From Acanthococcus lagerstroemiae (lineage: Eukaryota > Arthropoda > Insecta > Hemiptera > Eriococcidae): 64,000 nt of DNA. This document shows positions 2 through 55,420 of this stretch, piece by piece (within the stretch, counting starts at the first letter, position 1; each line of letters opens with the position of its first letter). The stretch is from assembly GCA_031841125.1 (NCBI GenBank), contig CM063109.1:3324321-3388320 (forward strand), written 5' to 3'. The notes beneath the pieces were generated by a model. That model was not told the origin of the DNA. It worked only from the letters and a program-made list of their open reading frames with translations, and ran no database searches. A program made the position numbers and the translations under genes.

Positions 2-1318
2 TTAGGACAACATTTGCGATTACCTAATGAAATATTACCTAAAAAAGGTGAAGGATTTTATATTGATCGAAAAACCATAACCAATAATCAGAAAAAAGAA
101 GGCAAAGGATTTCATATTGATCGAAAAACTACAACCAATGATCTCCCAGAAATAATGAATTATTTGAATAATTTATATGTTAACAAACAGAAAAAAAAAG
201 GTAAAGGATTTTATATTTATCGGGAAACAGCTATCAATGATCGAAAAAAAAAAGGTGAGGGTATCGAAGTAAGTAGATACATTAAATATCCTATCAATCC
301 AGATAAGGAACAACTTGACAAAATTAATATTGGTGTTGAGAAAGGGGTACCTGTTGTACTAAATTTAGGATACGAAAATTTAATCAGAACTAAAAATAGC
401 ACACAGAACGAAACATATTTACCTCTAACAAAAGCACAAGTGAATCAAATTGAGACAGCAAAAACCAAGGGAAAAGGTTTAAAGCTAAAACTGAACAAAA
501 CACAACTGAAGCAGGTTAAAAATGGTGGATTCTTCCCACCAGCTATCCTAGCAGGATTGGCTGCTATTGCAGCAGCTAAACCTGCTGTAGAAGTAGGTAC
601 TAAAATAGTAGAAACTGTAGGTAATTTAATATCAACCGCCAAGCAAGCAATTGATAATAAGAAAGCCAATGACGAGTTAGTAGAAGAGAGAAAACGTCGT
701 AATGAAAAGTTGGAGTACAAGTCTGGTGAAGGCATAGGACAATATCTACAAATACCTAACGAAGTTCTAAAGAAAAAGAGCGTTAAAAAAATAAAAAATG
801 GCGTTAAAAAAAAATGCAATGGCGTTAAAAAAAGAAAAAATGGCGTTAAAAAAAAATGCGATGGCGTTAAAAAAAGAAAAATTGGGGGTGACATGATCAC
901 TCAACAAGTAATTAAAAAAATCTTAGATAATGAAAAAAAAAAAAAAATAACCATCAAGAATGACGCATTAACTAATTTTGAAATAGAAGCATATGCTGAA
1001 AAATTGCAAATACCTCATTTCAGAGGAGTTTTTATGCTTGATGAGCTACCACCAAAAATCAAAAAATATGAATGTGGAATTGTAAATTTAGACACTTCAG
1101 ACCACTCTGGAACTCATTGGACTGCTTACTGTAAGAATGATTCACAAGTTGATTTTTATGAACCGTTTGGTAACATTCCACCACCAGAATTAGTGAAATA
1201 TTTTGGACAGTCTAGAATTACTTATAATTATACGCAGGATCAAAAACTTGATGAAACAAATTGTGGTAGACGGTGCATAGAATATTTATTAAAAATTAAA
1301 AAAAAATACTATAAATGA
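2..1318 (+). CDS. Polinton pX-like / basic core / adenain-like protease fusion, 5' partial
   Basis: The frame is open from base 2 through the left edge, so the true start lies outside the window; residue numbers here count from base 14. Residues 10-85 hold four copies of a KKGKGFYIDRKT-like repeat. Residues 136-215 have the LTKAQ...KTQLKQ...GGFFPPAILAGLAAIAAA pattern seen in membrane-active minor capsid (pX-like) proteins of Polintons and adintoviruses. Residues 254-290 are a Lys-rich tract built from 7-residue GVKKxKN units, resembling a DNA-condensing core peptide. The C-terminal third is an adenain-type cysteine protease (C5/C48 fold), with His368 in GTHW, Glu383 in YEPFG, Gln410 and Cys417 in NCGRRC as the probable catalytic set. 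The Gly-Gly at 291-292 could be a self-processing site (inference). The family protease cleaves capsid precursors during virion maturation. The stop overlaps the next ATG (ATGA). Apart from the left cut I see no break. Confidence 0.85.
   Translation, partial: LGQHLRLPNEILPKKGEGFYIDRKTITNNQKKEGKGFHIDRKTTTNDLPEIMNYLNNLYVNKQKKKGKGFYIYRETAINDRKKKGEGIEVSRYIKYPINPDKEQLDKINIGVEKGVPVVLNLGYENLIRTKNSTQNETYLPLTKAQVNQIETAKTKGKGLKLKLNKTQLKQVKNGGFFPPAILAGLAAIAAAKPAVEVGTKIVETVGNLISTAKQAIDNKKANDELVEERKRRNEKLEYKSGEGIGQYLQIPNEVLKKKSVKKIKNGVKKKCNGVKKRKNGVKKKCDGVKKRKIGGDMITQQVIKKILDNEKKKKITIKNDALTNFEIEAYAEKLQIPHFRGVFMLDELPPKIKKYECGIVNLDTSDHSGTHWTAYCKNDSQVDFYEPFGNIPPPELVKYFGQSRITYNYTQDQKLDETNCGRRCIEYLLKIKKKYYK
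1298..1317 (+). promoter_or_regulatory. A-tract plus TACTATAAATG start element
   Basis: Nine A's run into TACTATAAATG, whose ATG starts the penton-like gene. The same block is also coding sequence for the last residues (KKYYK) of the upstream protease. The identical 11-mer stands before the capsid gene at 2052. A late-promoter role is inferred from position and from its likeness to TAAATG-type late promoters of large DNA viruses. Confidence 0.55.
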
Positions 1319-2031
1319 AATATATAAATGGTTCTTACAGTATGCTTATGAGCGGTACAGATTCTGTTCTTTATCATGATTTTAGTGGAGTTGATGACAT
1401 TATTAGACTCAACCCTAATAAAGAATGGGAAATTGGGTTAGAATCTTTCCACACATCTTATCGTTTTTTCAATATAACTGTAACTAAAAACAATTCACTT
1501 ACTTTTTATAAGGAGGTGAACGAATTACCTACAACTATAGTACTTGATCCTGGTATTTATGAAGTAGCTGATATTATTAAATGTATACATGAAAGTAAAC
1601 ATGCTAGGGCTGCTAATATAACCTTGAAAATAAATAAATACGCTCATACCATAATAATGGGGAGTCCATCACATATAATAGATTTAAGAGATGTGACTTC
1701 TGTTGGTAATATATTGGGTTTTACTAAGCAAATTATACCAGCTGGAAAAGAAGTTGAATCTGATAGCCACGTTAAAATTTTTCCTATTGAAAGCATTAAG
1801 GGGATATGTAATGAATGTAATAACGGTAATGAAAAAATACTTTTTTATTTTCCTATATCATCACTACCCGGAGAAAAAATAATCTATACACCAAATGAAA
1901 CTCAATATTATAGAGTGAGAAATAAAGAAATAAGCGAGATTGTATTAAACCTTTATGATCAGAATGGCAATCCACTTGAAAATAATGGTGAAACATATTG
2001 GGCATTTTTAATCATACGTGAAGTACGATAA
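1315..2031 (+). CDS. Penton-like minor capsid protein of the Polinton
   Basis: This 238-residue ORF sits between the adenain-like protease and the major capsid gene, the usual place of the minor capsid (penton) gene in Polintons. It begins MKYINGSYSMLMSGTDS and contains a NPNKEWEIGLESF stretch, recalling the N-terminal motif of arthropod Polinton minor capsid proteins, in which the protein's own ATG follows a protease ORF. It is rich in alternating hydrophobic and polar residues consistent with a single jelly-roll beta fold. No signal peptide or membrane segment is seen. The start is fixed by the TACTATAAATG element and by the ATGA overlap with the upstream stop. Penton assignment rests on gene order and general look, not on a decisive motif. 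The frame is intact. Confidence 0.65.
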   Translation: MKYINGSYSMLMSGTDSVLYHDFSGVDDIIRLNPNKEWEIGLESFHTSYRFFNITVTKNNSLTFYKEVNELPTTIVLDPGIYEVADIIKCIHESKHARAANITLKINKYAHTIIMGSPSHIIDLRDVTSVGNILGFTKQIIPAGKEVESDSHVKIFPIESIKGICNECNNGNEKILFYFPISSLPGEKIIYTPNETQYYRVRNKEISEIVLNLYDQNGNPLENNGETYWAFLIIREVR

Positions 2032-2033
2032 TT

Positions 2034-2062
2034 AAAAAAAAAAAAAAAAAATACTATAAATG
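2034..2062 (+). promoter_or_regulatory. A-tract plus TACTATAAATG start element
   Basis: A run of 18 A's directly after the penton-like gene's stop leads into TACTATAAATG; the ATG at 2060 starts the major capsid gene. The last 11 bases are identical to those at 1307-1317. Role as late promoter and/or A-rich leader is inferred. Confidence 0.6.
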
Positions 2063-3240
2063 AATGGTTACGAAAGTTTTGAATTAATAGAATTCTCCAC
2101 TGCTAATAATATTGATATAAATAAAAAAGATGAGGAAATTATAATTGAAATAAATACTCCTAATATTTGTACTTTACCTTGGAAAAGCGAGGTAGTTATA
2201 GCTGGTCGTCTGATAGTACGTGATAAAGACAAAAAAATTGCGAGTTTCGATCGTAGTACAGTACAAGTAATTAATAATGGGTTTCTCCATATTTTTAGGC
2301 AAATTATTTATAGAATTTCTGATGTTCAGGTAGATATATTGGAGTATCCAGGTGTAGCCAGCACCATTAATGGTCTCGTTTCACTGTCCAAAACCACCAA
2401 GTATTCTAATGCAGGATGGAATCTAAATAATGATTACATGAATGTTGATGCGAATGGTTACTTCAAAGTTGCATTACCTTTCGATATGTTTCTAGGTTTT
2501 GGAACTTATAAAGAAATTCTCTTTAATGTTAGTCAATCCTTGATACTAGCAAGAGAACAACATGGTGTTACAAATATGCTACAAGTTGACCCAAATTTAA
2601 AAGATTATACTGTGGAATTGAATCTGAAGTATATAACTTGGAGAATGCCAGTGGTGAAGCTTTCATTACAACTTGAAAAAGAAGTTTTACCATTGTTAAA
2701 TAAAGACATACCAATTCGTATGAATTTTGAGCATTGGCAATGTTTAAAGAAACCTGCTGGTAGTGTATCAGGAAAAGAATTTAGGTGGTCAATTCCTACA
2801 GATATTACATCACAATATGCTTTTGTAGTTTTCCAAAATAAAAGGAACAATGATCTCTTTGCTGATAAAAGTAAATTTGATCATTGTAATCCTTATGATG
2901 TACGTTTCAATGTCAATGGTTATGAATATCCTCGTCAGCAAATGCGATTAAATTTTAATGAAAAGGATTCAGGAGCTTTATATACATATTTTAAAATTAC
3001 AATGGAAAAGACGATGTTTTAATTGATCTTGTGCAATTTGAAAAAGAATATACTATCTTTTGCTTTGATCTTACAGGACAACCTGACGCTCTACAAACAG
3101 ATGTAGCCAATGTACAAATTATATTCTCATGGCGTGATGATTTTCCTAATACAGCTGAAATATTTGTTCTTTTGAAACAACCTGTTTGTTATGAATACAA
3201 ACCTATATCTAGAGCGGTTAGACCTGCTCCTAAAAACTAA
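2060..3240 (+). CDS. Polinton major capsid protein, frame broken near the 3' end
   Basis: The first 320 residues (2060-3022) form the ORF after the penton-like gene, the standard position of the double-jelly-roll major capsid protein. It opens MNGYESFELIEFSTANN and has the beta-rich composition and hydrophobic-polar alternation of a capsid shell protein. After the stop at 3020-3022 the coding sequence clearly goes on in the -1 frame (open from 2995 to 3240, beginning near the GTG at 3031), ending with an Arg/Pro-rich tail. The two frames overlap for about 25 bases (2995-3019). No canonical X XXY YYZ slippery heptamer in the zero frame is seen there, so a one-base deletion (mutation or assembly error) is the simplest reading. 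If the break is real, the product lacks its last 70-80 residues and is probably non-functional. The total length of about 395 residues is on the short side for the family. Confidence 0.65.
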
Positions 3241-3283
3241 AAAAAAAAAAAAAATAAAAAAAATATTCTTATAAATAGGTATG
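3241..3283 (+). promoter_or_regulatory. A-rich tract with TTATAAATAGGTATG
   Basis: After the capsid frame's last stop comes a 14-base A run, then A-rich sequence, then TATTCTTATAAATAGGTATG. It resembles the elements before the two upstream genes (A-tract, then TATAAAT), but the ATG at 3281 is six bases further on. Probable start element of the 46-residue ORF. Confidence 0.45.
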
Positions 3284-3421
3284 CAATCAGAAAACAATTC
3301 AGAGAACAATTCAGAAAATAAATTCAACTGGATGTGTATTATAATTTTCTGTTGGAATATTATCGAACAGGTGTTTAAAAAAATGAGAAAAAAGAAAAAG
3401 AAAAAAAAGACAGTCAAATAA
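3281..3421 (+). CDS. Small single-pass membrane protein with Lys-rich tail, 46 residues
   Basis: A short ORF following the A-rich start element. Residues 1-14 are polar with three repeats of SENN/SENK. Residues 15-28 are hydrophobic with two Cys and two Trp. Residues 32-46 are almost all Lys and Arg. This gives a polar N-terminus, a short membrane-spanning or membrane-binding helix, and a strongly basic tail. I do not recognise a family. Its place after the capsid gene and behind a start element like those of the capsid genes suggests a small virion or exit protein (inference). It ends just before a hairpin that separates it from the convergent gene. Confidence 0.5.
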   Translation: MQSENNSENNSENKFNWMCIIIFCWNIIEQVFKKMRKKKKKKKTVK

Positions 3422-3427
3422 GTATTA

Positions 3428-3453
3428 TTTTTATATGAAAAATCATATAAAAA
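3428..3453. terminator. 11-bp perfect hairpin between convergent element genes
   Basis: TTTTTATATGA (3428-3438), loop AAAA, TCATATAAAAA (3443-3453). It is the only perfect stem seen in the 36-base gap between the 46-residue ORF (+) and the 261-residue ORF (-), so it could end transcripts in both directions. Hairpins at transcript ends are known in giant viruses and virophages; the role here is inferred. Confidence 0.5.
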
Positions 3454-3457
3454 TACA

Positions 3458-4243
3458 TTATTCATTTTCTTGAACTAATGTGGTTATGAAAGGTTTACTA
3501 TTTTCAGCTTTCCATTTTTCAGAATCATTAAACATAGCTTCAACAATTTTTGAGACTTCTTTATCTCTACCTACACATAAAGAGTTCAAATTAGATTCTG
3601 TTGGAACAATATAATTTTCAATACAACATGCTCTACTCTTTTTTAAAGAACCTACTACGTTTGATACAAAAGTAGGACAGAACACAAGCATAGAATACCA
3701 TAAATCTGACATTACACCTCGTGTTTTACTATAAACTGTTTTAAATTCTTTTCTAAACTTTAATAAATTCTTATCAAATTCTACCTGAAATACACCTCTA
3801 GCTGTAAGTTGGATTGGTTCTTTATGTAGTGGATGATTCTTTTCATCTAGAAACACTAAGAGATACTTACGTGCTGAAATATAGTCTGTATCTCCTTTTA
3901 CCCAATAACCAGCAAAAGAGTAATCATTTCGAGAAAGTCTGATAAGTTTAAGTTGGCGTCTAATGATTAAAATACGATTTTTATCGATAATCCTACCTTG
4001 AATTGATCCATCTCGAGTCTCAATTGTGTGCGGTTTTGTATTTACAAAATGTTCTACACAGCTGGCACCTGAACATGACTCGTTGCAACTTTTTCTCCAC
4101 TCACAAGACATCAAATTTTCATTAGACATCCAGAAGCCTACAGGTTCTTGATTAATCACTTTCACTGATGGTATCTTTTTAGATACACAATGTGTAGAGT
4201 CATCAAAATTAAAGTTATTGCTTTTACTTTCAATCATTTCCAT
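3458..4243 (-). CDS. Polinton-encoded protein of unknown function, 261 residues
   Basis: An intact ORF read opposite to the structural genes and converging on them. Residues 47-66 are Cys-rich (CEWRKSCNESCSGASC), possibly a metal-binding knuckle. A central block around residues 105-165 (GYWVKGDTDYISARKYLLVF, then IQLTARGVFQVEF) looks like a compact alpha/beta domain; the rest is mixed charged. There is no signal peptide or membrane segment. In Polintons, genes read away from the capsid block are usually early or accessory genes; the upstream A-tract (4261-4274) and TATAAAATG resemble the starts of the late genes. I do not recognise the family with confidence and give no function. It could be a nucleic-acid-binding protein. 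Confidence 0.75.
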   Translation of the reverse strand: MEMIESKSNNFNFDDSTHCVSKKIPSVKVINQEPVGFWMSNENLMSCEWRKSCNESCSGASCVEHFVNTKPHTIETRDGSIQGRIIDKNRILIIRRQLKLIRLSRNDYSFAGYWVKGDTDYISARKYLLVFLDEKNHPLHKEPIQLTARGVFQVEFDKNLLKFRKEFKTVYSKTRGVMSDLWYSMLVFCPTFVSNVVGSLKKSRACCIENYIVPTESNLNSLCVGRDKEVSKIVEAMFNDSEKWKAENSKPFITTLVQENE

Positions 4244-4274
4244 TTTATAATATATAATATTTTTTTTTTTTTTT
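4241..4274 (-). promoter_or_regulatory. A-tract plus TATAAAATG start element (minus strand)
   Basis: On the minus strand, about 15 A's are followed by AT-rich sequence and TATAAAATG, whose ATG (4243-4241) starts the 261-residue ORF. It is the same layout as at 1298 and 2034 but with a longer AT spacer, so the whole gene set may share one promoter type. Confidence 0.45.
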
Positions 4275-4312
4275 AAACTAGGTTATCAATTTTCGATTTT
4301 TATTTTTTTATT

Positions 4313-4344
<32 letters not shown>

Positions 4345-4396
4345 TTAGTATTAAGATTTCAAACAAAAATTATTTGAAATCCAAGTTAGAAAAAAA

Positions 4397-4434
4397 AAGT
4401 GGTCTGATAAAAAATGGAAACTCGACCACTTTAT
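4397..4434. repeat. Short inverted repeat AAGTGGTC / GACCACTT
   Basis: AAGTGGTC at about 4398 is matched in reverse by GACCACTT at about 4424, with an A-rich spacer. It lies between the end of the Polinton ORFs and the minisatellite. It could be part of the element's subterminal region or chance. Confidence 0.35.
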
Positions 4435-4459
4435 ATTACAATATCAATTCTTTTAACAC

Positions 4460-4725
4460 CAACACAAAAATGTGAACTTGGTTACAGAGAACAAAACTTA
4501 CACACAAATGTGTTTTCAACAACGAATGTACAAAAATGTGTTTTCAACATCGAATGTACAAAAATATGAACTCGGTCTAGGATTATACAGAACTCACTCA
4601 GAAAAATGTTTTCAACAGTAAATTTACAGAAATGTGAACTTGGTTTAGAGAGAACAGAACTCACTCAGAAAAATGTCACTTCAACAGTAAATTACAGAAA
4701 TGTGAACTCGGTCCAGAATCATACC
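4460..4725. repeat. Minisatellite of degenerate units between Polinton and host gene
   Basis: Units containing ACAGAAATGTGAACTTGG, AACTCACTCAGAAAAATG and TTTTCAACAGTAAATTTACA recur about three to four times with base changes and small indels. It could be the subterminal repeat region of the Polinton or a host minisatellite. From 4725 to 5168 I see no coding sequence. Confidence 0.6.
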
Positions 4726-5168
4726 TTTCTATACTACTGGTATCGATCTTCCTTTATACATTACTAAAACTAAAATTTATCTTTTCTCTCCCCTGTCAGT
4801 AAAAAACAACGTATATTAGGTTTTCTGCCTTGAATGTGAAACTATGCATGAGCTGAAATATTACCCCAAGATCTAGACAGTCAGTTTTTGAGACAGGTAG
4901 TCAGAAATTGTAAGCCTACCAGACCCACTGTCTTGATGCGAAGCCCCGTAATATATACTTACTGAGTTTTAATAGAAGAATCAGATTAGTAAAACAGGAT
5001 CAAAGAGAAGAGCCTCCTGGAGTTCTTTCTCCTGGATCTGCATCAAATAATAAATGAATAGAGGCAACAATAATTATTGCACAGAGTTGTATAGTGTATA
5101 AACGAAAACTATTATAACAGTTTTCCGAATATTACAAGTATATTTTAATGAGCCATTTCTTCACTCAG

Positions 5169-8100
5169 GCATACGCGAGCATCGTAAAGGCATTTGGTTG
5201 GAAAAATTACGCCATTATATACGAGGACATCGATGATTTGGTTCATTTGCAAGGACTGGTGGGAGAGCACCAGCTGAAACCCAGTTTTATAACCAGATTA
5301 AGTAGCGAAATAACAGATTACAGGTGAGTCGAACGATGCTGTAGCAATTGCCATTAGAGTTCAATTCTTGGGCTTTATGGACACGCATGTTACACCTGTA
5401 ACTTTAATGTAGTGAGTAAATATACTTTCAATCGAATTACAGGCCTTTATTGAAAAAAATGAAGAATATGGGGTACTCGCAAATCGTACTCGACTGTTCA
5501 GCAGAGAAGACATTCACTGTCTTGAAACAAGCTCAGCAACTGGGCATGACCGGAACTTACCATAGTTACTTATTGACATCGCTAGTAAGTAATATACCTA
5601 TTATCTACTTATTTTTTATTTTAGGTATCTATATTCTACATCCATAAATGACTGGATTTCTGGGATGAGGAAACTATTTTCTTACAATATAAAAACTTCA
5701 GGTAGATCCTACTTGTATTTTTATGACTGGGGTTTATTTTGTTGCTCAGGACATACATACTCTAGATCTAGATGATTTTAAGTACGGAGGTGCCAACCTC
5801 ACCGCATTCAAACTGATCAATTTCGATCGACCGGAATTCAGAAGAATTCTTCGAGATTGGGTAAATAATTTTACATTTTCCCGTAGAGTAAGGATACAGT
5901 TTTTACCTTAACTGATTTCTGAACTAAAAGAAAATTTTTGTCTCTTCTTGCTTACTTTTGTGCAGGACAATGCAACAGTTATAAAGGTTTGTGATTTATT
6001 TATTATGTGTACCACAGCCTCATTCGTTACTTACCATCATTTGTTTCTCCCTCCCCCCTTCTTATTAAAAATCACGTGTTGTAGACGGAAACCGCACTCA
6101 TGTACGATGCAGTTTATTTGTTTGCCAAAGCGTTACATGATCTGGACACCAGTCAACAGATTGACGTCAATCCGATAAATTGTGACTCGACGGTGGATAC
6201 ATTTTCCCATGGCTTCAGCTTAATTAATTACATGAAAGTGGTTGGTAAAATGATTTTTTACATTTGAATAAATTGTACACATGAAACCTACAGTATTACT
6301 GTAGTCTAATAAAAATTTGACTGTAGATTGAAATCGAAGGTCTGAGTGGGCTAATCAAATTCGATAATCAAGGATTTCGGACCAACGTTCAGTTTGACGT
6401 GATCTCATTGCGAGAAGATGGAATAAAAACGATCGGAACGTGGAACTCGACTGTGGGACTAAATTTTACTCGCACGTATACTGAAACCTATTCGGAGATT
6501 GTTGAAAGTCTGCAGAACAGGCATTTTATCATAACTACTATTTTGGTACGACAATATTAATTTTCTTGATATTATTCTACCAGTTTTTTCTCATAGCATT
6601 GTCATTCACCAATAATGCATGCCGTTGGATTACATTTGCTTGCCATCATACTTCTGAACCATTTTCCTATAAGCTTCCTCACTGTTATCAAGAAGGTTGA
6701 AGCATCATTTAAGTCTTGGCACACCACTATAGTCCTGGAGTGGGTACTCATCAAATTTAGTGTACAAGACTTTCGACAATAGCCTACAGAAGATACTGTG
6801 TATCTCCTTGGAGAACTCTGTTGCATGTTATTTTATGATCACTATTTACGAGCTTGAAACATGAGCAAGCCTTTGCACGTATCAAAGCTCGTGAATTATT
6901 CCTCCAGAATTCTTAGAATTTTGTTCCTTAGCAGCTCAGATTATATTGGGATTATATTTTCACCCTATCATAGATTTGAGCAACACTCTGGGGTTTATTC
7001 CTATGTTCACTAGGAGGATGTGAAACAGTTGCAAAATCTTTGCACGTGTCTACTTACACTCGTGGGGAACCTATAAAAGTCAATAGGTATAGGTATTTTG
7101 AACGCTTAAACTGATTTCAAAGGAATTCTTATTTAGAGTGCGCCATATTTTATGCGGAAAACCTCCAGTGAGAAACTGACCGGTAATGACCAGTTTGAAG
7201 GCTATGTGGTAGACTTGACCAGAGAAATATCTCGAGTGCTGGGATTCAACTACACTTTTAGACTGGTACCGGATGGACATTATGGTTCTCTGAACAGACT
7301 CACGAACGAATGGGATGGGATGATTAGCGAGTTATTGGAACAAGTAAGCGCAATTCTTGATACAACTCGTATAGTTGTATTTGTAGGTATGTTGCCTATA
7401 GACTACTAATTGAATTATACGAAATTTTTTAACGCAGAGATCTGATTTGGTGATAGCCGACTTAACCATTACTTATGAACGAGAGCAGGCAGTCGATTTC
7501 ACCATGCCATTTATGAATTTAGGTGAGATTTCATTTCTTCTTCGTAATAGATCTCACTGAATTTGATTTTCTGTTCTTTAATAAAAATACAGTTCGTCTA
7601 ATAATCGGTTCTTCAATTTAAATTTTACTCGTAGGTACTTAGATTTGTTTAAATAGCTCGTAAATAATTTTAGGGATCAGCGTTTTATACCGGAAGCCGA
7701 TCAAACACCCACCTAACTTGTTCTCATTCCTATCTCCCTTGTCTTTCGATGTTTGGCTCTACATGGCCACGGCTTACCTTGGCGTATCGTTACTTCTTTT
7801 CATTTTAGCCAGGTTAGCTTAACTCTCTTTTCATTTCAACCGTCTCTGTTGATTAATTAGAAGAAAGGGATGCGTCTAAATATTGTTTGTAATTCGAATT
7901 TTGTACCCCCAGATTCAGTCCTTACGAATGGGAAAATCCGCATCCCTGTAAACGAGACTCTGACATTTTAGAAAACCAGTTCTCGTTAATAAATTCACTC
8001 TGGTTCGTTATTGGCACTTTGATGCAGCAAGGCTCCGACATCGTGCCCAAGTACGATTGGAAAACTAATATTAATTTAACCTTAGTTCTATTTTGAAATG

Positions 8101-10716
8101 GCAAAAAACGTAATGTCACGCGCATATGTGTACAAAATATGAACCGAGACGTAATAATTATTCCTGTCCAGAGCTTTATCGACGAGAATAGTCGCCGGCA
8201 CCTGGTGGTTCTTCACGCTAATCATGATATCATCGTACACCGCCAACTTGGCGGCTTTCCTCACCGTCGAGCGCATGGAATCACCGATTACATCTGCTGA
8301 GGACTTGGCTAAACAGTCGACTATTAAATATGGCGTCCTCAGAGGTGGATCAACCGCTGCCTATTTCAGGGTATGTTCAGGAATGATTATACTCTTAAAT
8401 TACTGACACGTTTCATCAGTATCATGCACAAATCCTTAATGTAGGGGGGAAGGGCAAATAGAGACACATCTGAATCCACCGTTGGCCTCTCCTAGCGTTT
8501 TCACCTGTAAGTAACTATAGTGTGGAATACAAAATGCAAAAAGCCGAATGGAAATCCTGTTCGCTGAAATCCTTTCATAAATACTGCTTCACACAACGTT
8601 ATGTGTTTTTTTGTTCTGGAATTGTGAAATATTTGGCTTCACGAGGTTGTCTCTTTTCTCTTAAAAGCGGTCATCTAGTCAAGAAGAGCAGCGTTTCCAA
8701 AAGTTAGGTAAACGTGTTTCATTCATCGGCTGGATGTGGGGAAACTTTTACTTGCAGTCTCTAAAATTGCGTTTTTTTTTCTTCTTTTTGCAACTGTGAG
8801 TCGCAGCGATATTGAAAACACCATGAAGTAGGGGAGATAACATTTTTCAAAATGAGTATTACCCAAGACCGTATTTTCTTCTTCCATATTTTTAAAGTTC
8901 ATTCGTTTTCTGTTAAGGACTACCAGATTAAATTACGACGTCATGATTTATTTCCAATTTCGCTAAAACGCATTAAGATTTTGATAAGATTCATTTTGGC
9001 TCCTTCAAAATCCTTTATGACTCATCGTCAGACTTCTAAACTCATTTAGACTGAGTCAAGACTTGGAAAAACTTATTAAAATATTTGAATTTTTTCTAGA
9101 GACTCTTTCCAGTACTTGTGAAACTCTTCACTCTCATCCAGACGCCTTCAGAGGTTTATATAACGTACAGCTATATGCTTCTTAAGACTTATTTAAGGGA
9201 GTCATCTTTAATGTTATGATGAGAATCATTCTATTCTGGGAAGATTTATGTACACTTTCTTAGCATAACGTTAGACACGACTAACACTTAGAAGGGGCAA
9301 TCGCCATCTCCTTAATTCACTTTGGAGGTGTGATTAGAAAGATTTCACAATTGAACTGTCACCTTAATGCCAGCATTTTGGTGTGAGATCTTAGTTCCTA
9401 AAACTCGAGGTGTTTATTCCTAATTTACCTACTAAATTTTTTTTTTTGTAATTTCAGGATTCTAATATTTCAACCTACCAGCGTATGTGGACTGTCATGG
9501 AAATGACCAAACCGACAGTTTTCACTGAATCGAATCAAGAAGGAGTAGAACGTGTCATAAGGGGACGAGGAAACTACGCTTTCTTAATGGAGTCAACTAG
9601 TATCGAGTACGTCACAGAAAGAAACTGCGAATTAACTCAGATTGGCGGGCTGCTGGATAATAAAGGATATGGCATCGCTACTCCACCAAGTAAGGAAATA
9701 CGAGTACCTATTCTCTCTATTATAGTTTGAATAAACGTGGATGTACCAATGTTAGAAGACAGCATAAATAAATATTTTTGGAAATCTGAGCGAAACAATT
9801 GTATCGAGCTGAATTTGGAAAACTTGAGAAAGATTGTTCACAAGGGTGGAGCAAAACCCAGTTTTCTAGATTTGGAGCTATACATATTATTTCGACAGGC
9901 ATCTTGCAATGATCTAAATGCAATTCGTTCTTATTTCCAGATTCTCCCTTCAGAACCCCGATTAGTAGCGCCATCTTAAAGCTACAGGAGGACGGTACGT
10001 TACACAAACTGAAAACCAGGTGGTGGAAAGAAAAACGGGGAGGAGGTTCGTGTAAAGTAAGTTCAGTTTTCTTATAGATCTATAGATGTAACCATAAGTA
10101 TAAATATAATTTCACCGACTTAACTGCTGGTACACATTGTCAGGACGATGTTCACAAAAGCAGCAATACAGCCAACGAGTTGACCTTAGCCAGTGTTGGT
10201 GGTGTCTTCGTAGTGCTGCTGGCCGGTTTGGGTATCGCGTGCTTGGTCTCGGTGGGCGAGTTCATCTGGAAGCTGAGAATGGAAGCGTTGGAAGGCAGGG
10301 TACGTCACGATTTAATATCGAGTCACGTTCCTAAAACTAAGCCTTACGATATTTTACAAAAAGTGGACCTGCAACCTCCTAGTTATTAATTATTTGTGAT
10401 TTGAACTAGAAAAGAGAGTATGTAAGTAGATAACATAATTCAAGTAATTTTGCGAAAGAAATTTTAAAACAAATGAAATATAGTAAATTGGGGGTTTTAA
10501 ACAAATCGTTTGGCACTGACAACCGTGTGTGTATATGTTTCTCGATCATAGGTGAGAGTATCTTTCTGTAACGAAATGATGTCCGAGTGTGAATTCGCGC
10601 TGAAATGTCGCCGCAATAAAATAACTGTTTTGCAGCCACCAAAAGACGATCTTTTACAGCGGCATTTGTCTCAGGGCTGCAATCAGTCGGTGAATTTAAA
10701 TTACCCCAATTTATAA
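5169..10716 (+). CDS. Kainate-type ionotropic glutamate receptor, gene A (15 exons, 5' exons not in window)
   Basis: Exons: 5169-5323, 5443-5584, 5750-5860, 5966-5986, 6085-6240, 6327-6545, 7137-7343, 7438-7522, 7674-7812, 7913-8050, 8172-8370, 9458-9689, 9941-10056, 10144-10299, 10552-10716. All have GT/AG borders, and the joined frame is open for 746 residues. It is a ligand-gated cation channel subunit of the plasma membrane. The order is: second half of the amino-terminal domain (through [10 protein letters not shown]), S1 ligand lobe ([18 protein letters not shown], then [10 protein letters not shown] with the glutamate-binding Arg), M1, pore loop with LMQQGSD (Gln at the Q/R site), M3 with canonical [10 protein letters not shown]2 lobe (GGST; YAFLMES with the binding Glu), M4 and a short cytoplasmic tail. 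The counterparts of gene B exons 1-3 (signal peptide, first 140 residues) are missing: nothing codes for them between 4300 and 5168. Either they lie left of the Polinton or the gene is 5'-truncated. The 21-nt microexon 5966-5986 is less certain. Confidence 0.93.
10300..10389 (+). CDS. Possible alternative C-terminus of gene A by intron retention
   Basis: If the donor at 10300 is not used, the frame runs on for 29 codons to a stop at 10389. The extension starts [11 protein letters not shown] and ends VDLQPPSY. The spliced last exon (10552) also starts with Val-Arg, so both tails join smoothly. Retained-intron tails are common in glutamate receptors, but this could be chance. Confidence 0.3.
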   Translation, partial: VRHDLISSHVPKTKPYDILQKVDLQPPSY

Positions 10717-54589: not shown

Positions 54590-55420
54590 TACTGACCGAG
54601 GTCCGCGCTCCCTGAGCACTCGCCTGAAATTCAGATCCCCACAGCCGGACGCGCTGCCTCTTCACTCACCCCTCACTTCCTCGTCTTGGTCCGTGTAGCG
54701 ACGCAGGCAGGAGCCCTGCCAGGGGGTCCGCAGCACAGCTGCAGCAGCTCTCCTAGTATGGTACAGAGTTGTCCTGTTCGATGGTGTGGGTCGAGCTTGG
54801 GAAATCGCCGGCCCTCTGTCTCGACCACTATGTCTGCATCTTCTTCTGCATGATAGCCGAGACAAAGGCCGACACCCGATTCCAACTGCTTCAGCTCTTC
54901 ATCATCTCCGGAACCAGGGTGTCCGGCGCGAGACAGCTGATCACGCTGTCGTTGTCGTTGATGCTTCCTCTTCTTCCGCCGGGATTGATCGCTGTTGTGG
55001 CCGTCCCGCGCCTCTCCTGCTCCCAGATCTCACGCTCGAACAGGGTGTGCCAAGGTGTGTCCTACGTCCCTCGATCACAGTGCGCGCTCACGGGGCTCGG
55101 CGCTATCGACATTCGATATAAGTACGTGCCGAAGCACCCGTAGCCGCTCAGGACTTGGGTCAGGTGGAAGTTCAGCTCTCCGTGAGTTCTTTCTGCCCAT
55201 CCATCGAGGCCGCGTATCAGCGCTTGGGTCCACTCGCCTTTGGTCGAATGGGTGAGCGCATCCTTCCACTTCCGAAGCGTGTCCTGCTGGATGGCTCGCT
55301 TGATTCGAAGTGCTTCCTGTTTCGTCTTCGCTCTCTTCTTCGCATCATATACCTCCGCTATCTCGCCGATCTTGAGTTCGATCGGTGGTATACATGCTAA
55401 CATGCCTGCTGCCAACGAAG
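54590..55420 (-). pseudogene. Non-LTR retrotransposon (R1/Jockey-like) 3' end, 5'-truncated
   Basis: The minus-strand ORF 55062-55415 reads WTQALIRGLDGWAERTHGEL, then NFHLTQVLSGYGCFGTYLYR: the post-RT region of R1-like ORF2 proteins (L-I...W...H-G...F-x-L-T-Q-x-L-S-G-H/Y-G-x-F...Y-L). A short continuation down to about 54660 has changed frame at least once. The fragment is clearly more GC- and CpG-rich than its surroundings, pointing to a fairly recent insertion. The N-terminal endonuclease and RT catalytic parts are absent. Confidence 0.75.

Follow-up and report, generated by a model that had tools for sequence, protein, structure and literature searches.

A start-codon motif at the genes of a Polinton in an insect genome and its possible role as a promoter

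Passages of two papers report that virophages have promoter motifs in common with their helper viruses, as in mavirus and the type-4 EMALEs (PMC8547959, PMC10945749). For poxvirus late promoters, a section of PMC5294985 describes an element of T residues, then 5-7 bp, and then TAAAT(G/A) overlapping the RNA start; an excerpt of PMC3061580 gives an insect poxvirus gene (DlEPV) in which TAAATG follows a stretch of 87% A/T. Here we analyze a 64-kb stretch of the Acanthococcus lagerstroemiae genome (the window), at the left of which lies the end of a Polinton/Maverick element, and we ask how a motif at the start codons of its genes compares with these systems.

The motif at the gene starts of the element

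The element is 15,006 bp long and runs from C4:3314053 to window position 4738; the contig labels C2, C4, C6, and C19 all refer to the same 658-Mb assembly, and L064 and L065 are separately read stretches outside the window that hold the left part of the element. A preliminary description, made from the window alone, had reported an A-tract followed by the 11-mer TACTATAAATG, or a variant of it, at four gene starts and had suggested a promoter system carried by the element itself. This observation is correct and was understated. The 11-mer stands behind 9 and 18 A residues on the start codons at 1315 and 2060, as described, and the minus-strand version is likewise present; the looser copy upstream of a 46-aa frame is real, with an extent of 3239-3283. 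The four sites are:

1298..1317, + strand: A9-TACTATAAATG, with A9 at 1298-1306 and the 11-mer at 1307-1317; ATG 1315 opens a putative penton gene
2034..2062, + strand: A18-TACTATAAATG, with A18 at 2034-2051 and the 11-mer at 2052-2062; ATG 2060 opens the major capsid protein (MCP) gene
3239..3283, + strand: A16-T-A8-TATTCTTATAAATAGGT-ATG, the looser copy; ATG 3281 opens the 46-aa frame
4241..4274, - strand: A15-TATTATATATTATAAAATG, the minus-strand copy, at the start of the DUF5895 gene

The copy at 1315 overlaps coding sequence: it falls in the 3' end of the previous frame, and the stop codon of that frame overlaps the new start codon.

The motif exceeds chance. Counting both strands, the window contains the pattern A7-N0-14-TATAAA four times, each time at one of the gene starts named above; TATAAA by itself occurs 104 times. 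When the 4.7-kb element part was simulated 1000 times with a first-order Markov model, the pattern appeared 0.22 times on average and three times at most, and the genome-wide controls described below returned no matches at all.

All four sites are confirmed, but the motif is not restricted to them. We defined the core as TATAA or TAATAA between -14 and the ATG, and a tract as a run of at least 7 within 35 nt. In the family of the window's Polinton (F0), the core is present at 11/11 called gene starts of the element, compared to 44/509 other ATGs and 23/77 AT-matched ATGs; an equal frequency in AT-matched sequence, which the preliminary description had named as a refutation, is not seen. Strict TATAA is found at 10/11 starts versus 32/509 other ATGs and 18/77 AT-matched ones, at neither of two ATGs inside the putative polymerase gene (PolB) that we presume to be false starts, and at 3.0% of the 1893 host ATGs in the window. 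At every called start the F0 core begins 5-11 nt before the ATG. Behind the core, ORF138 (L064:52), PolB (L064:1349), and DUF5895 (window 4243) show the same ATGGAAA and an AT-rich leader, which might reflect the copying of a leader from gene to gene.

Copies, controls, and other Polinton families

The MCP protein yielded 125 scored matches at 95-100% identity among 359 candidates in the genome, and most of those listed hold an open 393-aa frame. Given that the copies are near-identical and their MCP frames mostly open, we read them as the product of a recent, large burst. The pattern A8-TACTATAAATG has 263 exact matches genome-wide, while the reversed and the scrambled patterns have none. Among the 100 listed of these 263 matches, 90 are paired at 730-770 bp, like the penton and MCP starts, and 9 adjoin a listed MCP gene, so that 99 show the spacing or the neighborhood of element copies; the remaining one, at C2:32021509, is unassigned.

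Other copies of the element carry the motif at the same places, the check that the preliminary description had named. The MCP core AAATACTATAAATG is unchanged in 30/30 fetched copies and the penton core in 29/30. The length of the adjoining A-run varies across copies: 10-23 at the MCP gene (30 copies), 8-10 at the penton gene (30), 9-43 at the small frame (28), and 10-19 at DUF5895 (27). We also sought ten starts in five further copies, one 100% identical and the other four diverged (95-97%); in three of these copies, 4, 1, and 1 of the starts fell outside the pieces. The DUF5895 leader is replaced in two of the five (one keeps TATAA/TAATAA at the ATG, the other has TATAA at a greater distance), and one copy has an altered core at the small frame; all other located starts retain the core.

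A search with PF21738 returned further families, F1-F6 (126 scored of 356 candidates), which we sorted by frame length and score. The tally that follows covers one copy per family and few starts each, with the genes of F1, F2, and F5 named by position and visible likeness. F5 and F5b, with a GC content of 0.24-0.28, have T-tracts of 7-8 followed by ATAATAAATGG, ATTAATAAATGG, ATATAAATAGAAATGG, and ATAAATAAATGG, and by ACTTTATAAATACATCTACAACATGG farther from the ATG; a homopolymer tract is present at 5/5 of their starts and the core at 4/5, with TAAAT within 14 nt at 3/3 F5 and 1/2 F5b starts. In the F5 piece, none of 103 other ATGs has T7 in its last 14 nt, a stretch narrower than the 35 nt applied to the starts. 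In F1, F2, F3, F4, and F6 together, the core is found at 1/8 starts: at one of three in F1 (the penton) and at 0/5 in the other four families, two further F6 pieces offering no usable start. Pooling the counts gives 15/16 for F0 and F5/F5b versus 1/8 for the five other families (Fisher p = 1.8e-4).

We tabulated by hand the distance from tract to TAAAT at 9 of the 10 tract-bearing starts. It is 5, 5, 8, and 12 nt behind A-tracts and 4, 5, 3, 5, and 6 nt behind T-tracts, which places five starts at 5-6 nt, two at 3 and 4, and two at 8 and 12. The start omitted is ORF191, whose A-tract ends ~20 nt before the ATG and ~16 nt before TAAAT. As a separate observation on F5, capsid matches recur every ~3.7-3.9 kb on one strand of C6:37039622-37059588, a pattern that suggests a Polinton fragment repeated in tandem.

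Beyond this genome, we found no relatives in IMG/VR, scanned for the MCP and for the DUF5895 protein, or in GTDB contigs or phages. The strict motif occurs in two IMG/VR contigs, which we judge bacteriophage-like by their frames. When the window proteins were compared with these and with the 31 loci of a relaxed pattern (see below), 33 in all, no convincing match emerged (best E 0.15). One IMG/VR contig, L026 (GC 0.26), has two A-tract and TATAAA sites on its minus strand, both starting long frames (375 and 720 aa).

Gene content, DUF5895, and contig C19

The remaining features of the element in and around the window are as follows:

2..1318, + strand: 3' part of a PLA2-like, pX-like, and putative protease frame that begins at L064:8600, left of the window
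1315..2031, + strand: putative penton / minor capsid protein, 238 aa, an open frame
2060..3022, + strand: MCP, double jelly-roll (PF21738, 113.8 bits)
3281..3421, + strand: small frame, 46 aa, an open frame
3423..4742: right terminal inverted repeat, aligned over 1320 bp with L065:8050-9369 at 99.8% identity; the element ends at 4738
3426..3455: perfect hairpin with arms of 13 and a loop of 4, immediately following the stop codons of DUF5895 and of the small frame; a second copy lies in the left repeat at L064:16-45
3458..4243, - strand: DUF5895 gene, 261 aa, within the terminal inverted repeat (Pfam PF19247, 57.1 bits)
4739..4744: target-site duplication GGTATC, 6 bp; the identical six bases flank the other element end on its left

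To the left of the window, the element encodes an integrase (Pfam rve PF00665, 48.5 bits, L064:7767-8582) and a packaging ATPase of the FtsK/A32 type (Pox_A32 PF04665, 30.2 bits against a cut-off of 22.8). The MCP frame of the window copy stops early, compared to 393 aa in most listed copies. The PLA2-like domain, the pX-like part with its short repeats, and the putative protease form one open frame from L064:8600 to window 1318, the first part of which matches Pfam Phospholip_A2_4; repeats at window 780-884 are 21-bp units. The pX and protease labels are putative and reflect presumed resemblances: neither an adenovirus-type protease nor pX gave a Pfam match over the cut-off, and the putative protease had no convincing PDB match either. 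The penton, which we name from its position and a presumed resemblance, also had no Pfam match over the cut-off. What we take to be a protein-primed DNA polymerase B lies in pieces in this copy, with Endonuclease_7 as the sole Pfam match over the cut-off in the three frames scanned.

The DUF5895 gene is present in both inverted repeats, with its left copy at L065:8549-9334. At the junction of this gene and the convergent small frame, the right-hand hairpin is a possible RNA 3'-end signal. We considered a general hairpin rule for gene ends, such as that of mimivirus, and rejected it: a perfect hairpin with an arm of at least 11 occurs once in each of the two scanned element pieces and nowhere in the F5 piece. 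The outer part of the inverted repeat (window 4440-4738) consists of diverged repeats, some at a spacing of 68 bp. Beyond the element, window ~5150-8350 presumably holds a host gene, with exons that appear to resemble those of an insect ionotropic receptor.

Among 5.8 billion proteins, the DUF5895 protein has one match, in Dasineura jujubifolia toursvirus 2a (DjTV-2a; 48% over 94%). A profile built from these two sequences found 23 matches, namely DjTV-2a, gp035 of Diadromus pulchellus ascovirus 4a (DpAV-4a), and 21 unnamed proteins; in the host genome, 138 scored of 348 places often form + and - pairs ~13.4 kb apart. Given that toursviruses and the element have this gene in common, it appears from these sequences to have passed between toursviruses and the Polinton, in either direction, or to have reached both from a third source. 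The Pfam family DUF5895 is also mentioned in a cyanophage paper. An AlphaFold model from the two sequences had a pLDDT of 29.5 and was discarded.

A capsid gene of the nucleocytoplasmic large DNA virus (NCLDV) type (PF04451) matches at two places only in the assembly, both on contig C19 (256,961 bp) and with identical scores, at 54752-55255 and 220473-220976, 165,721 bp apart. The simplest reading is that C19 probably represents a circular virus of the sequenced specimen, its genome assembled through more than one full turn. Its capsid gene starts behind AGTAGTATAATAAACAAA and a divergent open stretch of 21 codons begins TATAATG, so that TATAA is present at 2/2 starts.

Candidate promoters, their alternatives, and known systems

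The motif system is borne by the element, as the preliminary description held: it recurs in 30 copies, stands at 11/11 starts, and is found almost nowhere else in the genome. From these sequences we infer the rest, namely the promoter function, the polymerase, the helper, and the dependence on it. We tentatively favor the idea, about which our judgment falls just short of an even balance, that the motif is the element's own promoter for an RNA polymerase of the NCLDV type, resembling a poxvirus late promoter, and hence that the element would lead a virophage-like life. A dA:dT tract would serve as the upstream element at some genes, followed by a short spacer and a TATAA/TAAAT initiator on the start codon, and RNA synthesis would thereby start only a few bases from the ATG. 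No RNA polymerase is known to be encoded by Polintons, so such promoters would need a co-infecting large DNA virus and would be active only when one infects the same cell. In vaccinia, either an A or a T tract can serve. The likeness to mavirus and the type-4 EMALEs is why helper dependence may apply here. The DUF5895 gene found also in toursviruses and the NCLDV-type capsid gene on C19, with TATAA at its start, count in favor of this reading. The proposed resemblance to poxviruses is one of layout, a tract, a short spacer, and TAAAT(G/A) on the start codon, which recurs with T-tracts in F5; the link by gene content is to toursviruses (Ascoviridae), not to poxviruses. The preliminary description had further likened the motif to the A-rich leaders of poxvirus-type viruses, and we set aside such a leader of the mRNA as a shared function because F5 carries T-tracts.

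Several points weigh against this promoter reading. The gene starts are open-frame calls, and we chose the cores with the starts already in view, so the core counts overstate the case somewhat. An A-tract of at least 7 within 35 nt is found at only 5/11 F0 starts, and TAAAT within 14 nt at 7/11. The F5b MCP gene has TATAAATA ~18 nt before its ATG, beyond the counted window, and F1 has A7-TTATAAAT 16 nt before its MCP ATG. Outside this genome, A10-N2-10-TATAAATG matches 31 IMG/VR contigs, once each, and at 16 of the 31, some of them near-duplicates, the matched ATG opens a frame of at least 80 aa; single starts of this kind therefore exist in other viruses. Finally, AT-matched ATGs of the element carry the core at a rate of 30%, and TAA doubles as the stop codon of the previous frame at the element starts 6300 and 7149 and at the F5 penton.

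These last two points would also fit an explanation by translation-start context, AT bias, and gene packing, with the two identical copies of the 11-mer arising from a copied leader. It could further draw on the 12-14 A/T among the 14 bases before the ATG at all ten starts counted, on the strict TATAA at AT-matched ATGs (18/77), and on the ATGGAAA common to DUF5895, ORF138, and PolB. We nevertheless consider it unlikely, given that the core stands at every called start compared to under a third of AT-matched ATGs, that the scrambled motif is absent genome-wide, and that the T-tracts of F5 give no A-rich leader and yet TAAATG is kept. Far less probable still is that the motif has no present function and is left over from a viral ancestor. 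In its favor is the established view that Polintons have a common origin with large DNA viruses; against it, the MCP core is intact in all 30 copies, although the adjacent A-run ranges from 10 to 23, and the copies are near-identical and mostly have open MCP frames. An overlap between Mavericks and virophages, reported in a portion of PMC10945749, also counts for the relic.

Transcription by host RNA polymerase II (Pol II) is a serious rival. Here poly(dA:dT) would exclude nucleosomes, TATAA would be a loosely placed core promoter or initiator, leaders would be very short, and no helper would be involved. Tracts and TATA-like sequences are ordinary features of Pol II genes, F6 has TATAAATAG 38 nt before its MCP ATG, near the normal TATA position, and the element has spread to more than 100 places, so its transposition genes are or were expressed. 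The position of the F0 core argues the other way. Part of PMC5294985 puts the Pol II TATA box 25-30 bp before the RNA start; at 5-11 nt before the ATG the core is too close for a TATA box, and RNA begun at that distance would not include the start codon. Nor does the core occur at any of the 5 starts examined in four of the five other families, and in the fifth it stands at 1/3; because it is missing at most of these starts, host transcription of Polintons seems not to require it. On balance we regard the host polymerase as a possible explanation, though well short of a probable one.

A bolder extension of the promoter reading, which we hold to be rather doubtful, is that the element is an animal virophage whose genes would depend for their activation on a large DNA virus of insects (of the ascovirus/toursvirus or the poxvirus kind), which would have exchanged a gene with that virus's kind, and whose helper in the sequenced specimen would be C19. 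Some observations on C19 weigh against the promoter reading as well as against this extension. Its GC content is 0.21 in the 301 bases read, and at that composition TATAA has a 12% chance of occurring at any one start, so its presence at two C19 starts carries little weight. The C19 capsid frame has no PDB or Pfam match over its first 57 aa, and C19 is absent among the 138 scored (of 348) DUF5895 places. If the extension is true, the more than 100 copies would form a store that can be induced and that might hold the large virus in check, as happens with mavirus in a protist. We know of no animal virophage. In the literature searched (titles and abstract starts), no animal virophage is described and no start-codon promoter system is given for Polintons or adintoviruses; open-access papers, with most subscription papers outside the search, likewise yielded none on such promoters in animal Polintons. 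A start-codon motif system in two AT-rich Polinton groups, missing at most examined starts of five others, offers a handle on helper dependence.

Compared to the late promoters of poxviruses (vaccinia, DlEPV), the element has, at some of its starts, a similar AT-rich upstream element with a homopolymer tract, a spacer of about 5 nt, and TAAAT(G/A) on the translation start. It differs in that A-tracts prevail, with T-tracts in F5; in that several genes have TATAATAAA or TATAAAA without TAAAT, and 6/11 starts have no tract of 7; and in that its putative replication genes carry the core too, while it encodes no known RNA polymerase. Yeast cytoplasmic linear pGKL1/2 are likewise linear DNA elements of small size, and poxvirus-like promoters lie just ahead of their start codons, but a passage of PMC6831550 gives them their own RNA polymerase and capping enzyme and likens these promoters to early ones.

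The mavirus/EMALE virophages, whose TCTA motif is common to the giant virus CroV, are also related to Polintons, are found integrated, and carry a single motif at their genes, and different element types in one host bear different motifs; our element has another motif and is probably animal-hosted. With animal Polintons/Mavericks and adintoviruses it has in common the integrase, the A32-like ATPase, the double jelly-roll capsid, the inverted repeats, and the 6-bp duplication, and it differs from them in carrying DUF5895 within the inverted repeats. This gene is shared with the toursviruses (Ascoviridae) DjTV-2a and DpAV-4a, which, unlike the element, are large viruses; the motif system also indicates which virus group to examine.

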